Shown piece by piece: positions 36,726 through 47,776 of a stretch of DNA of 64,000 nucleotides (positions within the stretch are counted from its first letter, which is position 1; the number at the start of each line of letters is the position of its first letter). A program made the translations under genes and the position numbers. The notes beneath the pieces were generated by a model that did not search any database, was not told the DNA's origin, and saw nothing but the letters and a program-made list of their open reading frames with translations. This stretch comes from a virus, in IMG/VR virus record IMGVR_UViG_3300027749_000047, positions 62,001 through 126,000 of that record. One strand, given 5' to 3'.

Positions 36726-37225
36726 TAATAATCTCCTTGATCAGTAATTACTGGCAGTTCAGCAACACGACGTAGAGCAGCAACATATTCTTCAGATGTA
36801 CCAGCAACAACGATAGTGTTATTAGTTATTGTACTAGTAGGCATGTTATCAAGACCCAATACTTTAGCACGCGCTTGAATAATCTTTAATGCTGTTTCTA
36901 CGGCTTGCCTGTCACCATTAATGGCGTCTTGCCATACAGCGCTTTGCAACTCATCAAGCCGGTCCACTTCCATAGCCAGTAAAGACCTTTTGTGGCCAGC
37001 GTCTACTAAGTCTGCGGCTTCTTTTAAAGCATCAGAAATCAAAGTGTTTACGTTTCGCTCTGAAATTCCTAGGTGTTCTGCTATTGACCATAAAGAGCGA
37101 CCTGATCTGCGCATTTCTAGTGCTTTTCTGGCTTTTTCGTTGCGTTCGTCTTGTAAAAGCGCCGCTGAAGTAACTTTTTTGGTTCTAGCTATTTCTTTAG
37201 TAACAGCCGCTTTTTTTACCGTCAT
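36725..37225 (-). CDS. Small terminase-like helix-turn-helix protein
   Basis: The 166-residue protein has a helix-turn-helix (RRSGRSLWSIAEHLGISERN, VNTLISDALKEAADLV) followed by a helical segment (AMEVDRLDELQSAVWQDAIN, GDRQAVETALKIIQARAKVL, GLD). This combination, with RLDELQ..W..A..GD..AV...L.I...RA...GL, is that of many actinophage small terminase subunits. It lies 11 kb from the large terminase and on the other strand, so another DNA-binding role is possible. Confidence 0.6.
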   Translation of the reverse strand: MTVKKAAVTKEIARTKKVTSAALLQDERNEKARKALEMRRSGRSLWSIAEHLGISERNVNTLISDALKEAADLVDAGHKRSLLAMEVDRLDELQSAVWQDAINGDRQAVETALKIIQARAKVLGLDNMPTSTITNNTIVVAGTSEEYVAALRRVAELPVITDQGDY

Positions 37226-37653
37226 TTCTTTCTCCTTCTAGGAGCTACAAAAGCTTTGTCGTCATAATCATCCATGGTTTTTTGCACGTTACCTTTATTG
37301 CGTGCTAAAGCCGCTCTTCGTTCAAAACTTGTAAAACCGCCCCATACACCAAAAGGCTCTTGTTTTTTTAAGGCTGTAATTAAACAGTCACGCTGAACAT
37401 CACATAGTTTGCAAATAGATTTAGCATAATTTATTTGCTGTGAAGACATTGGCAAATCGGAGTGTCCATAAAATATTTCTGATGGCATTCCAAAGCAATA
37501 AGAATCGTCACGCCAATCTCTGCGTGCCGTATAGCGCCAAGCAAGTGGCGTCGATGGCGTCTTGAGGTTTTTTGAGTTGCTGGCAGGCGTCGTAATAATT
37601 GGGGTGTTTGGAAGCAAGCCATCTTGCGACAGCTTCTTTGTCCGATCTTCCAT
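37222..37653 (-). CDS. WhiB-family iron-sulfur transcription regulator
   Basis: Starting at ATG 37653 the protein has 143 residues. It has the four cysteines of the WhiB cluster (C53, C81, C84, C90, with CKLCDVQRDC) and the GVWGG motif (102-106) followed by a basic stretch. WhiB proteins bind a 4Fe-4S cluster and the primary sigma factor region 4, and occur only in actinobacteria and their phages. The first 48 residues are coded by DNA that also codes the end of the RuvC-like gene. It overlaps the next gene by four bases. Confidence 0.88.
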   Translation of the reverse strand: MEDRTKKLSQDGLLPNTPIITTPASNSKNLKTPSTPLAWRYTARRDWRDDSYCFGMPSEIFYGHSDLPMSSQQINYAKSICKLCDVQRDCLITALKKQEPFGVWGGFTSFERRAALARNKGNVQKTMDDYDDKAFVAPRRRKK

Positions 37654-37975
37654 TACCAACTACCGCCTTTTTCCATGATGAAGGTCCAATAAATATTACC
37701 TCTGATTCTACTCGCTGTGCTGCCACAGCCAAAGCACCGGCTACCATACCCATAGATATGCCCGTACGGATGTTGTGGCTAGCGCCCTGAATTGCTTGTT
37801 CAATAACAGTCAATTCAGGGCACGTAGCCCACATTAGGTTGGTTAACCAATCAGACAGGATTAATAGGTTTTTGACGTCATCTTTGCTGGTCAAAATGAG
37901 TTCTTCAAAAACCATGTGGCTAGGGTGTGCGAACGCAATTCGTCTTACACCATAGTCAACTCCTGCTGCATCCAT
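37508..37975 (-). CDS. RuvC-like Holliday junction resolvase
   Basis: The 155-residue protein has an RNase H-like fold pattern with acidic residues at the expected places: D7 in AAGVDYGVRRIAFA, E59 in ELTVIEQAIQGASHNIR, and D139/D142 in KKPQDAIDATCLALYG. It would cut branched DNA made during replication and recombination before packaging. Length is normal for RuvC-type nucleases. Its last 146 bases overlap the WhiB reading frame. Confidence 0.8.
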   Translation of the reverse strand: MDAAGVDYGVRRIAFAHPSHMVFEELILTSKDDVKNLLILSDWLTNLMWATCPELTVIEQAIQGASHNIRTGISMGMVAGALAVAAQRVESEVIFIGPSSWKKAVVGNGRSDKEAVARWLASKHPNYYDACQQLKKPQDAIDATCLALYGTQRLA

Positions 37976-44571: not shown

Positions 44572-45870
44572 TTACCCCATTTGCATTTCTTCAGCTTCGT
44601 CATCAGCCATTCTCATTTCTGCTGCACGTTCGGCGCTAATGTCGCCAAAGCGTCCAAAGGTTGGGTCAAACTCAGTAAACCAGCGCGAACCAGATTCACC
44701 GTGTCGATACTTAGTGAGTGAGTTAAGCAATACATGCTTAGATACTCTTTTGAGCGTCACTAACGCGTCAGCATCTTGTCCTAAAGCATCAGATTGTGCT
44801 AAATGTTCAGCGCCTGGTGTTTTGTCTGAGTTGCCTCCAGCGCGGTTTATTTGTGCCGCGGCAATGATTGGGACATTGCGATTAAGTGCTACTTCTTTAA
44901 GTTGGTTAGAAATAGCAGCCATTGCTCGCCAGTCTTCAATAGCGCGTGAGCCGGTTGTTGTGTGCATAAGGCCAACGTAGTCCACGATAACTAATGTGTT
45001 ATCACCTGCAACGGCTGAGATGACTGATGCGTCACATCTGCCTTTGGATGGATCATAGACACTAATTGTTCCTGTGGCTGTTTCTGACCACTTTTCCAAT
45101 AGTTTGCGGCGTGTATCAATGTCTATTTCTGTCCATGGACGTTTGTAGTCTTTGAATGCCACTCGATGAATACGATCTTGTACGGATTTAGCAGGCATTT
45201 CGAGACTGAAGTATGCAACATCCCAGCCACCTTCTGCTGCAGCAACAGCATGTTGAATCATTTTCCATGATTTACCAATACCTAAACGCGCTGCTACAAA
45301 CCACAAATCACCTGCAGCAATACCACCAGTGATTGCGCTAAGCATTCCATACGGTACTGGGCACATGTTGAGCTCTTGCTCATTCTCCAAAAGTGTTAAA
45401 TCTGTAGCATCAATGCCCATACCAATGGCTGGTTGTATTTGCGATAAACCATTTTTTAGGTAATCAATAGCCTCATCGTTTGCGTCTTCTGCAAGAGATG
45501 CTGATGCTTTAGACATTGCTGAACGTAAAACTCTGTTTGTGTGTGCATCAGATAGTTGACTTGCTGCCCATACAGGGTTTATGTCTGATGTGTACGGGAA
45601 CCGTGGGTACTTTTCTTGAAGTAAGTGAACTGGTGGAGCACAGTTAGCATCCTGTTGGTATTTCATACAAAACTCATGAATAGGTTTGTGGCCTGATATT
45701 TGTTCTGTCTTAACACCAAACATACCTGGGATATAGACACCGGTATCTATTAGCGCTGAAATAAACAATGCTTCTGGAGCATGATCTGCTGTAGAACCGT
45801 AGTTAACTTGTATGTGCTTATCACTGACCAGTTTCATGTAACTGTTTTTCTCTTGTTTTTGTAATCCCAT
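44572..45870 (-). CDS. DnaB-type replicative helicase
   Basis: The 432-residue protein has a RecA-type core: Walker A GIGKSWKMIQHA near 195, GWDVAYFSLEMPAKSVQDRI, Walker B NTLVIVDYVGLMHTTTGSR, NRNVPIIAAAQINRAGGNSD, and HGESGSRWFTEFDPTFGRFGD at the end, as in DnaB. The N-terminal domain is short. It is the first gene of the leftward operon, with AGGAG upstream, and starts about 20 bases after a terminator-like leader hairpin. Confidence 0.9.
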   Translation of the reverse strand: MGLQKQEKNSYMKLVSDKHIQVNYGSTADHAPEALFISALIDTGVYIPGMFGVKTEQISGHKPIHEFCMKYQQDANCAPPVHLLQEKYPRFPYTSDINPVWAASQLSDAHTNRVLRSAMSKASASLAEDANDEAIDYLKNGLSQIQPAIGMGIDATDLTLLENEQELNMCPVPYGMLSAITGGIAAGDLWFVAARLGIGKSWKMIQHAVAAAEGGWDVAYFSLEMPAKSVQDRIHRVAFKDYKRPWTEIDIDTRRKLLEKWSETATGTISVYDPSKGRCDASVISAVAGDNTLVIVDYVGLMHTTTGSRAIEDWRAMAAISNQLKEVALNRNVPIIAAAQINRAGGNSDKTPGAEHLAQSDALGQDADALVTLKRVSKHVLLNSLTKYRHGESGSRWFTEFDPTFGRFGDISAERAAEMRMADDEAEEMQMG

Positions 45871-45890
45871 TTTTTCTCCTGTGTGTATAA

Positions 45891-45950
45891 AACAAAATAG
45901 CCTTAAGTCTGTATCTAGAATTACCTAGACTAAGGCTTAAAGCTATTTTT
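45891..45950 (-). terminator. Terminator-like leader hairpin before the helicase
   Basis: On the minus strand AGCCTTAGTCT pairs with AGACTTAAGGCT (45927-45937 with 45899-45910, one bulge) and then ATTTTGTTTT follows. An outer 8-bp pairing AAAATAGC/GCTATTTT extends it. It lies between the -10 at 46007 and the helicase start, so it would stop transcription unless overcome. Confidence 0.7.
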
Positions 45951-46006
45951 GGGAAGTCAAAAGTTAAAATCTTTTAGGCATACTGCCCCCTCCCCGTGTA
46001 AGAGCA

Positions 46007-46012
46007 ATTATA
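46007..46012 (-). promoter_or_regulatory. Extended -10 promoter of the replication operon
   Basis: On the minus strand TGG-TATAAT is a full extended -10. A -35 is weak. It would start RNA near 46000 and give a leader of about 130 nt before the helicase gene at 45870. It faces away from the promoter at 46131. Confidence 0.65.
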
Positions 46013-46108
46013 CCAGATAAATCTGAATAGGAATACCTAACAGGAAGCCATAGCAGGTAATACTTTGTAACAATCTGATAACAAGAACTTATGGGTAATC
46101 AAAGTGGG

Positions 46109-46136
46109 GTTGCGATTAGAAAGCATATGATACAAT
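46109..46136 (+). promoter_or_regulatory. Promoter of the structured RNA and late-side genes
   Basis: GTTGCG (46109-46114), a 16-base spacer and TACAAT (46131-46136) preceded by TGA form an extended -10 promoter. RNA would begin near 46141, at the first base of the folded RNA described next. Confidence 0.65.
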
Positions 46137-46139
46137 AAA

Positions 46140-46363
46140 GGCTGAGTACGTAGTGTTCAGAAAGCAGATTAAATAACATTCACAATAACACTCCATTAAA
46201 AGTGTTAAAGTGAAAGAAGCGAAAGCAAAAAATCTGAGTACTTAACTGAGCATAGCTGTTAAAGCGAAGCGCCACTACGGTACGGAAGCCTAAACATATA
46301 GCGATAACCACTGTAAAAAATAGGCAAGGAATAACCCTTGTTAACGCAGGGGTTTTTTCTTTT
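46140..46363 (+). ncRNA. Structured non-coding RNA with closing stem and terminator
   Basis: The two ends pair: GGCT, GTAC and GTAGTG (46140-46155) with CACTAC, GTAC and AGCC (46273-46290). Inside, CAGATT/AATCTG (46165-46170 with 46231-46236) encloses TTCAC/GTGAA (46179, 46210) and AACACT/AGTGTT (46187-46192 with 46201-46206), a GCGAAAGC tetraloop hairpin (46219-46226), and beside it TTAAC/GTTAA (46242, 46258). A promoter starts it and an intrinsic terminator ends it. No protein frame is present. Family unknown; it could be a regulatory leader RNA or an origin-linked RNA. Confidence 0.75.
46333..46363 (+). terminator. Intrinsic terminator of the structured RNA
   Basis: AACCCTTG (46333-46340) pairs with CAGGGGTT (46347-46354), with one G-U pair and a six-base loop, followed by TTTTCTTTT. 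It ends 38 bases before the lysin-like gene, so that gene is served by read-through or another start. Confidence 0.85.
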
Positions 46364-46401
46364 GTGTACACTAGACACATAACTACAATCAAGGAGCAAT
46401 A

Positions 46402-46818
46402 ATGGCAATATCACGTATTACAGGCACTCAAGCATTTTCACACATGAATGTTTGGCGTCTTAATGAAAAAAATGGTTTTCTTGGCTACTGCCACAGAACA
46501 TGTCAGAATGCTTGGGGACTACCTCCTAAGTATGAATCAGCTATTGATGCATGGAATCATGTACCTAAGCAGCATCGTCATACAGATCCAACTAAGGCTC
46601 CTATAGGAAGTCCCCATTTTTGGGAAGGTGGCTTGTATGGGCATGTGGCGCTTCAGTCAGATAAGAAAGATGTTGTTATTACTACTGATGCCCCTCGCCC
46701 TAATTACATTGGTTTAGAGCACATGGATTTCTTTACTAAGAACTGGGGTAAGAAGTATCTTGGTTGGGCTTCCCAGTACAACGATGTTGATTTGCAGTTG
46801 GGTAAGATGCCTTCATGA
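46402..46818 (+). CDS. Lysin-like cell wall hydrolase (CHAP/NlpC-type)
   Basis: The 138-residue protein has NGFLGYCHRTCQNAWGLPPK (catalytic Cys candidate at about 30), APIGSPHFWEGGLYGHVALQ (His at about 81) and VVITTDAPRPNYIGLEHMDF then KKYLGWASQYNDVDL. The Cys...GHVA..S...TDA order is that of CHAP and related amidases. AAGGAG precedes the ATG. It is followed by a candidate holin-like membrane protein, which fits a lysis role. It lacks a separate wall-binding domain. Confidence 0.65.
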   Translation: MAISRITGTQAFSHMNVWRLNEKNGFLGYCHRTCQNAWGLPPKYESAIDAWNHVPKQHRHTDPTKAPIGSPHFWEGGLYGHVALQSDKKDVVITTDAPRPNYIGLEHMDFFTKNWGKKYLGWASQYNDVDLQLGKMPS

Positions 46819-46958: not shown

Positions 46959-47107
46959 TATTTTGCTTAGTGTGGGCTTCCTAGGACGTGCCTTTACTAG
47001 CCGCAGTATTGTGGCTCCGTATGGAGTACCAATACCGCCTTGCCAAGACCCTCGTGCACCACATTCTTTCAGTGTTTGTGGGAGCGGGGGTTTTGTGCTA
47101 CATTTAA

Positions 47108-47179
47108 GGTACTGTAGTCCAATAGAGCAGAGACGGCCAGAAAATGGAGGGATTGCAGGTTCAAATCCTGCCAGTACCA
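47108..47179 (+). tRNA. tRNA-like element with defective anticodon arm
   Basis: The acceptor stem is perfect (GGTACTG with CAGTACC, then A) and so is the T arm (GCAGG-TTCAAAT-CCTGC). The D arm is short (GTCC-AATA-GAGC with one mismatch) and lacks GG in the loop. The anticodon arm cannot form five pairs: only CCA/TGG pairs around GAAAA, and no T precedes a plausible anticodon. Total length 72 is normal. No CCA is encoded at the end. It may be a decayed tRNA or a tRNA mimic. Confidence 0.55.
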
Positions 47180-47485
47180 CTTCGCTAGTCTATGCACCAT
47201 GACGTCTGGGAGTATGGGCCTCCATTAAATTGGGCGGCGGAGTCTTTTATGGAATAAGAGTTTGTTTATTCCAAGTTATATGATAAGTTTTCTTTTAACA
47301 GCACGGATTGCAACTGTGTTGGTGAGTGGCTGAAAAAAGTCTCCTGTTTAGGTGGGATGATAAAGCACAACGTGGGTTTAGCGGCCTGGACTTAGCGGTC
47401 TAAAGCGTTGGTAGGAACAAGGCGGTACATAGGATACCTAAACTTCTCCTTGGTGGTAACAGACAATCCACCCTTACAACCTTAA

Positions 47486-47534
47486 GGCCCCGTATGCGGA
47501 CATGATCTGATTGTGACCGGTACGGGGTCTTTTG
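47486..47534 (+). terminator. Intrinsic terminator of the RNA region
   Basis: GGCCCCGTA (47486-47494) pairs with TACGGGGTC (47521-47529) through one G-U pair, with a 26-base loop that has its own pairing potential, followed by TTTTGTGATTTT. It ends the non-coding stretch that contains the tRNA-like element. Confidence 0.75.
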
Positions 47535-47535
47535 T

Positions 47536-47670
47536 GATTTTAGTAGTGTAGAACCTGTGAAATTGGTAGTGTTATATTGTTTACATTGAAATATAACAAA
47601 ACCACGCTAAGTGTTACATTGTTGCATCTTAGTGCAACACTTTGCTTGGTTATGTTGCACCACAATGCAA
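47536..47670 (+). other. Hairpin-rich spacer before the tmRNA-like gene
   Basis: GTTATATT (47571-47578) pairs perfectly with AATATAAC (47590-47597), and GTTGCA (47621-47626) with TGCAAC (47633-47638). AAGTGTT and AACACTT flank the second hairpin and could compete with it. No gene is seen. The tmRNA-like element begins at the end of this spacer. Confidence 0.5.
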
Positions 47671-47750
47671 GGGGCAGGAAGGTTTCGACTAGACATTAAA
47701 ACCGCATGTCGGTAGTGTTTAGGACCAGAGTTCAATTCTCTGCTGCTCCA
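47671..47750 (+). ncRNA. Minimal tmRNA-like gene (tRNA-like domain only)
   Basis: The 5' end GGGGCAG pairs with CTGCTCC at 47743-47749, with a G-U at pair 3-70, the alanine identity mark, followed by A. The sequence after the 5' stem holds GGTTTCGAC, the conserved D-loop region of bacterial tmRNA. The T arm is perfect (CAGAG-TTCAATT-CTCTG). In place of the tag and pseudoknots there is one 10-bp helix (CTAGACATTA with TAGTGTTTAG, two G-U pairs) closed by CCG-CATGT-CGG. Normal tmRNA has about 350-400 nt; this has 80. Confidence 0.7.
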
Positions 47751-47776
47751 CACGCGGCCAAACAAAGGAGATAAGT

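Follow-up and report, generated by a model that had tools for sequence, protein, structure and literature searches.

Just ahead of their late genes, some uncultured and probably actinobacterial viruses appear to make, from a promoter of its own, a folded RNA of about 220 nt that is very likely functional, and the element is very probably a new structured phage RNA. Judged from the sequences compared, it is a real, conserved and new structured RNA of one phage lineage, with the sequence nearly wholly changed between relatives and the shape kept. The analysis concerns a stretch of 64,000 nt (the window), positions 62,001-126,000 of IMG/VR record IMGVR_UViG_3300027749_000047. This conserved RNA, unrelated to Rfam families, sits where late expression is probably decided, in an actinobacterial phage group known here from metagenomes alone.

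Architecture of the RNA unit

Relatives were gathered from IMG/VR with the adjacent DnaB-like helicase and the terminase as queries, and are denoted by L and G numbers. The unit and the gene that follows it comprise the features below.

46109-46363, + strand: structured RNA unit (promoter, core and terminator), with core and terminator inside 46137-46363
46109-46136, + strand: promoter, seen directly as a motif, with a weak -35 (GTTGCG), conserved spacer TTAGNNANNRTRTG and extended -10 TGATACAAT
46128-46136, + strand: extended -10, TG-A-TACAAT, seen directly as a motif; the -35 is weak
46139-46143/46287-46291, 46146-46149/46280-46283 and 46150-46155/46273-46278, + strand: P1, closing stem of 15 pairs in three segments
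46165-46170/46231-46236, + strand: P2 (arm 46165-46236), enclosing P3 and P4; compensatory change between the window and L008
46179-46183/46210-46214 and 46186-46192/46201-46207, + strand: P3 (46179-46214), in two segments
46219-46226, + strand: P4, GC-GAAA-GC; tetraloop variable among relatives
46250-46270, + strand: P5, GC-AUA-GCU-GUUAA-AGC-GAA-GC; pentaloop GUUAA in seven of seven sequences
46333-46363, + strand: intrinsic terminator, stem 46333-46354 and U-run
46402-46818, + strand: first gene of the late block, 138 aa (phrog_12298, E 1e-5), with Shine-Dalgarno AGGAG at 46392-46396

The sequence-only reading had placed a well-folded RNA between a promoter and a terminator, which is supported, beyond what was claimed, by the predicted promoter and terminator motifs, by conserved pairings and by the folding energy. 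The whole stretch 46109-46363 reaches -63.8 kcal/mol on the + strand (z = -4.86), with none of 200 shuffles as good, and the fold of the opposite strand is weaker (z = -2.88). The core spans 156 nt in the window and consists of P1, P2 with P3 and P4 inside, and P5. The three-segment closing stem of the earlier reading is present, with 15 pairs counted instead of 14, and the nested arm (46165-46236) and the second arm (46250-46270) are confirmed by their coordinates. The GNRA-type tetraloop hairpin was likewise found in the window at P4, but its loop is not conserved, reading AAAA in L008 and GACA in L009. P3 carries a symmetric AA/AA internal loop between its two segments and UUAA in its loop.

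TTAGNAAGCATATGMTANNNT occurs only once in the window, even when three mismatches are allowed, and the promoter spacer is common to seven of eight relatives, L042 included. From the usual -10 spacing, the 5' end of the RNA is predicted at about 46141-46144; a start at this place could clip the outermost P1 pairs. A coding function was rejected. As had been claimed, the unit lacks a reading frame: no + strand ORF of at least 20 aa overlaps 46109-46401, and a one-base deletion in the L008 RNA would shift any frame there.

Conservation of the fold among diverged relatives

The comparison is based on only seven distinct RNA sequences, which fall into three types. The window's own 135,953-bp viral record carries the region twice, the other copy being 83% identical, and L007 and L008 carry a close variant (90% identity over the RNA). 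In L009/L010, L011, L037 and L012 an RNA occupies the same slot and is invisible to BLASTN with the window RNA as query. L043 also holds the RNA, as a third type, with a different upstream neighbour and a different first downstream gene. The core length is constant across members (148-156 nt), and UUAA in the P3 loop and GUUAA as the P5 loop occur in every one of them; since UUAA is self-complementary, the two loops could kiss. In addition, the window and L009 types share two nearly invariant unpaired segments, AAAUAACA ahead of P3 and GAAAG behind it.

Homology across these types was detected through structure, with a covariance model (R1) trained only on the diverged type (L009, L011, L037 and L012). 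Covariance-model alignments were chosen because MAFFT misaligned the 3' half of two RNA types. R1 retrieved the window RNA (46136-46292) as its best match in both strands of the 64 kb, at 29.8 bits and E 2e-4 against E 0.57 for the runner-up, E-values that are rough because model calibration was short, so that the contrast in bit scores is the main evidence. L008 was matched at 26 bits, and L043 gave the top match of its locus at 12.7 bits. A control model, consisting of the R1 alignment without base pairs, reached 7.0 bits on the window in a partial match of rank three, and missed L043. Because the window scores 29.8 bits with pairs and 7.0 without, about 23 bits of its match derive from secondary structure. 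Furthermore, a model trained on the R1 set plus the window type (R3), with L043 outside the training set, found L043 at 27.4 bits (E 2.2e-4 over its 37-kb record). Clear R3 matches (E <1e-3) were obtained in nine records, with one copy each but two in the chimeric record G000.

G000 (135,953 bp) is made up of two genomes, each of about 67 kb, that are roughly 83-94% identical and bring two terminases, two helicases and two RNAs; the assembly has probably joined two strains into a chimera. In the relative G002 (66,574 bp) the terminase spans the contig ends, which makes this record look like a single complete circular genome.

Covariation was assessed at two depths. Between the window and L008, nine substitutions break none of 40 pairs and one pair is changed on both sides, from A-U to G-C in P2; under random placement of substitutions this pattern has P ~0.0017, in a test that is slightly circular, the structure being the fold common to both sequences. 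Two further changes from A-U to G-U fit the + strand as the transcript, not the - strand. In the seven-sequence alignment, whose covariation is not independent because it was fitted to the structure, 93.8% of 288 pair cells pair, versus 28-39% when slid. Two-sided changes occur there at 28 of 42 pairs, with at least one per helix, a level reached by none of 500 shuffles; in P1, 95% of cells are paired and 11 of 15 pairs show a two-sided change. The independent evidence is R1 against the structure-free control on the window. When folded alone, each of the seven sequences forms the closing stem and P5 with its GUUAA loop. For the window, L009 and L043, none of 400 shuffles gave a GUUAA hairpin at a probability of at least 0.6, and a comparable closing stem appeared in at most 0.25% of shuffles.

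A lack of conserved pairings in relatives had been set beforehand as the outcome that would speak against the RNA; structure-dependent homology and covariation instead came out in its favour. They also bear on the idea of a chance fold of an untranslated leader with no RNA function. Leaders can fold well by chance, but this explanation, now scarcely credible, is contradicted by structure-dependent detection across diverged sequences together with the shuffle tests and the covariation, and chance folding was rejected.

Searches of Rfam 15 at gathering and relaxed thresholds returned no family for any of the three types (window, L008, L012, L037 and L043), and BLASTN of the three types against 50,697 phage records gave no match. 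A terminase search of GTDB genomes yielded six distant MAG contigs, in which R1 found no copy. In L042 the RNA was not detected by the structure models, though the promoter is present. The 138-aa gene is likewise retained in this relative, whose leader is of another kind, with terminator-like hairpins preceding the late genes. At L042 6540-6735, AGCCGAAGGCTTTTTT stands immediately after the -10, and a long hairpin with TTTTTTATTT at its end directly precedes the Shine-Dalgarno of the following gene. This leader may represent an independent way of working the same late switch.

Genomic setting and candidate functions

To the left of the RNA, the - strand encodes a DnaB-like helicase, a DnaG-like primase and a long DnaE-like protein, whose polymerase label was read from sequence with no profile scan. 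To the right, the + strand encodes the 138-aa first gene, an HNH-like protein, the terminase and the portal, and the claimed position between the replication operon and the late-side genes is borne out. WhiB has been used as an actinophage marker (PMC10202952; PMC6802176); because a WhiB-like gene (37222-37659, PF02467) is present in the window, the host is probably an actinobacterium.

Further observations were made in the neighbouring sequence. The leader of the replication operon (45964-46014, - strand) holds TGGTATAAT, then a strong Shine-Dalgarno GGGGAGGGGG, then the tiny frame MPKRF, which in relatives reads MPSYSQ, MSSYSQ or MPSLSVPKFP, each ended by a stop. A 25-nt stem-loop at 45894-45949 follows the tiny frame, and over the block 45976-46037 identity reaches 85% in relatives whose helicases are about 70% identical; leader-peptide control of the helicase gene is possible. 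On the + strand of the window, some 640 nt at 46960-47600 are devoid of a convincing gene and include a stretch TTAGTGTGGG..CCTAGGA common with L009. A tRNA-like match lies at 47108-47179 (RF00005, 36.6 bits), with no ARAGORN call.

The first late gene is exchanged among members, being the 138-aa protein, an M23 peptidase or a 459-aa protein. Since the AlphaFold model of the 138-aa product reached a pLDDT of only 36.7, the suggested lysis role of this gene is taken from where it lies and from the M23 peptidase found in its stead in relatives. Throughout these exchanges of neighbours, the RNA remains at the start of the lysis, packaging and structural operon.

The RNA is tentatively read as a late-operon leader that may control passage through the terminator, working like the lambda late leader or HK022 put, a possibility somewhat short of probable. 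Of the functions suggested in the sequence-only reading, late-switch control or antitermination appears to fit best. The dedicated extended -10 promoter would give rise to a late-operon transcript with a structured 5' leader, which would fold into the conserved closed domain from P1 to P5 and, in four of seven members, end at an intrinsic terminator lying some tens of nucleotides upstream of the first late gene. By default, polymerase would make an RNA of 215-250 nt and then stop. At a later stage, polymerase would be admitted to the lysis-type, packaging and structural genes by the folded RNA, acting by itself or with a protein of phage or host that is perhaps loaded at the conserved promoter spacer. 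The promoter motif, the fold and its maintenance through compensatory changes, the strand, the terminator and the position are observed; the existence of the transcript, its conditional termination and the cis action of the RNA are what we infer.

This cis-acting leader is favoured because of the lambdoid-like gene order, the conserved spacer and the HK022 put precedent. The RNA heads the late block though the first gene is exchanged, as is the upstream gene in L043, and the spacer conserved in seven of eight relatives stands at the Q-binding place of lambdoids. In the window, 38 nt separate the terminator from the ATG of the first late gene, and no promoter-like site (9/12) was found in them; elsewhere in the late block, terminator-like sites are no more frequent than expected by chance. 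The terminator is kept in L008, and different ones occur in L012 and L043. Against the leader stand L009, L011 and L037, in which no recognisable terminator was found, and possible weak promoters that overlap the terminator in L008 (TGATACACT) and L012, from which transcription of the first late gene may begin separately. The missing competitor for the terminator 5' arm within the leader also counts against it. Nor did the 17 proteins compared with PHROGs include a recognisable N- or Q-like antiterminator; most accessory proteins had no match there.

A structured leader followed by a terminator, with a conserved unpaired core, would also suit a riboswitch-like element or attenuator in which a ligand or protein toggles between antiterminator and terminator. 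An attenuator switch is unlikely because no pairing within the leader competes with the terminator: in the four terminator-bearing members (window, L008, L012 and L043), the longest complementarity to its 5' arm does not exceed chance. With no Rfam riboswitch match and three members devoid of a terminator, this explanation as a whole is improbable.

The same lack of a competing antiterminator pairing agrees with a discrete, stable phage sRNA acting in trans, for which promoter, closed fold and constitutive terminator would form a stand-alone gene; this is doubtful taken singly, and nearly as likely as the cis leader. During infection such an RNA would bind a protein or RNA of the host or the phage, and the conserved unpaired AAAUAACA, GAAAG and the UUAA loops would serve as contact surface. 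Its own promoter and terminator, the constant core length of 148-156 nt and its freedom from any one downstream gene speak for trans action. However, the RNA always heads the late block, and in the terminator-less L009, L011 and L037 it would run on toward the peptidase gene unless processed. Co-occurrence with a second RNA in the records examined also favours trans action:

47671-47753, + strand: mini-tmRNA, 83 nt (Rfam tmRNA), also at L008 3963-4045, L012 809-891, L039 569-651 and L043 7710-7792

The mini-tmRNA matches Rfam tmRNA at 55-64 bits over both model ends and has an acceptor stem with G3-U70, a short P2 hairpin and a T-arm, and neither mRNA-like domain nor tag frame. It is conserved across the group with compensatory changes; ARAGORN made no call on it, and no close match was found in named phages. 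It could be charged with alanine, yet without a template. The two RNAs occur together in nine records (among G000-G016), with both copies in G000, and are absent from more distant records, including G010 (L042), G012 and G013; the co-occurrence may come from shared descent, the sampling being small. That the element founds a new RNA class, gating the late operon of actinobacterial phages by its own fold or, with the mini-tmRNA, reprogramming translation or ribosome rescue late in infection, is rather unlikely.

Participation in replication origin function had also been proposed from the placement between the helicase/primase/polymerase block and the late block; the RNA would then be a primer or origin transcript, and the GC skew does change sign at 46 kb. 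The skew change coincides with the change of coding strand, however, the L043 RNA lies with late genes and has no helicase beside it, and 45860-46420 holds no cluster of origin-type short direct repeats. Origin function has no support beyond position and is very improbable.

If late-operon gating is true, late control by a leader RNA becomes testable outside lambdoids. If trans action is true, a new infection-time RNA is at hand, and its partner becomes a target of search, as does a possible link to the mini-tmRNA.

Comparison with known systems

Like phage structured small RNAs generally, the RNA has its own promoter and terminator, is non-coding and folds compactly; unlike the known ones, it has no Rfam family at threshold for any of its three sequence types. 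6S RNA (SsrS), a single long hairpin with a central open bubble, was rejected, the fold here being multi-branched and without an Rfam 6S match. A split tmRNA with this RNA as its mRNA-like domain was also rejected, as there is no conserved tag frame; the candidate frames, read by eye, are AKNLST and a stop in the window versus a much longer unrelated frame in L008.

The lambda late leader is 194 nt long. The DNA site of lambdoid Q lies partly between -35 and -10, and Q allows polymerase to read through the terminator (PMC6266700; PMC7171158). The arrangement found here resembles lambdoid late control (pR', Q) in its conserved sequence between -35 and -10 and in its order of promoter, leader of about 200 nt, terminator, lysis-type gene and terminase, the lysis part of which rests on the M23 peptidase of relatives. 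Promoter, leader and terminator precede lysis-type and packaging genes in the window, L008, L012 and L043. Points of difference from lambdoids are the conserved structure of the leader RNA, the lack of a recognisable Q-like protein among the 17 scanned, a probably actinobacterial host, and three members without a terminator.

HK022 put suppresses termination in cis via the zinc-binding domain of the polymerase beta' subunit. This leader RNA alone can let polymerase pass terminators, and it comprises about 70 nt with two stem-loops behind early promoters (PMC9378689). The core described here differs, with 148-156 nt, a closing stem plus two arms, and a place ahead of late genes; identity with put was rejected on size and the two-stem-loop form. 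As with put, however, a structured RNA stands directly behind a phage promoter, and by analogy a cis action on polymerase is possible.
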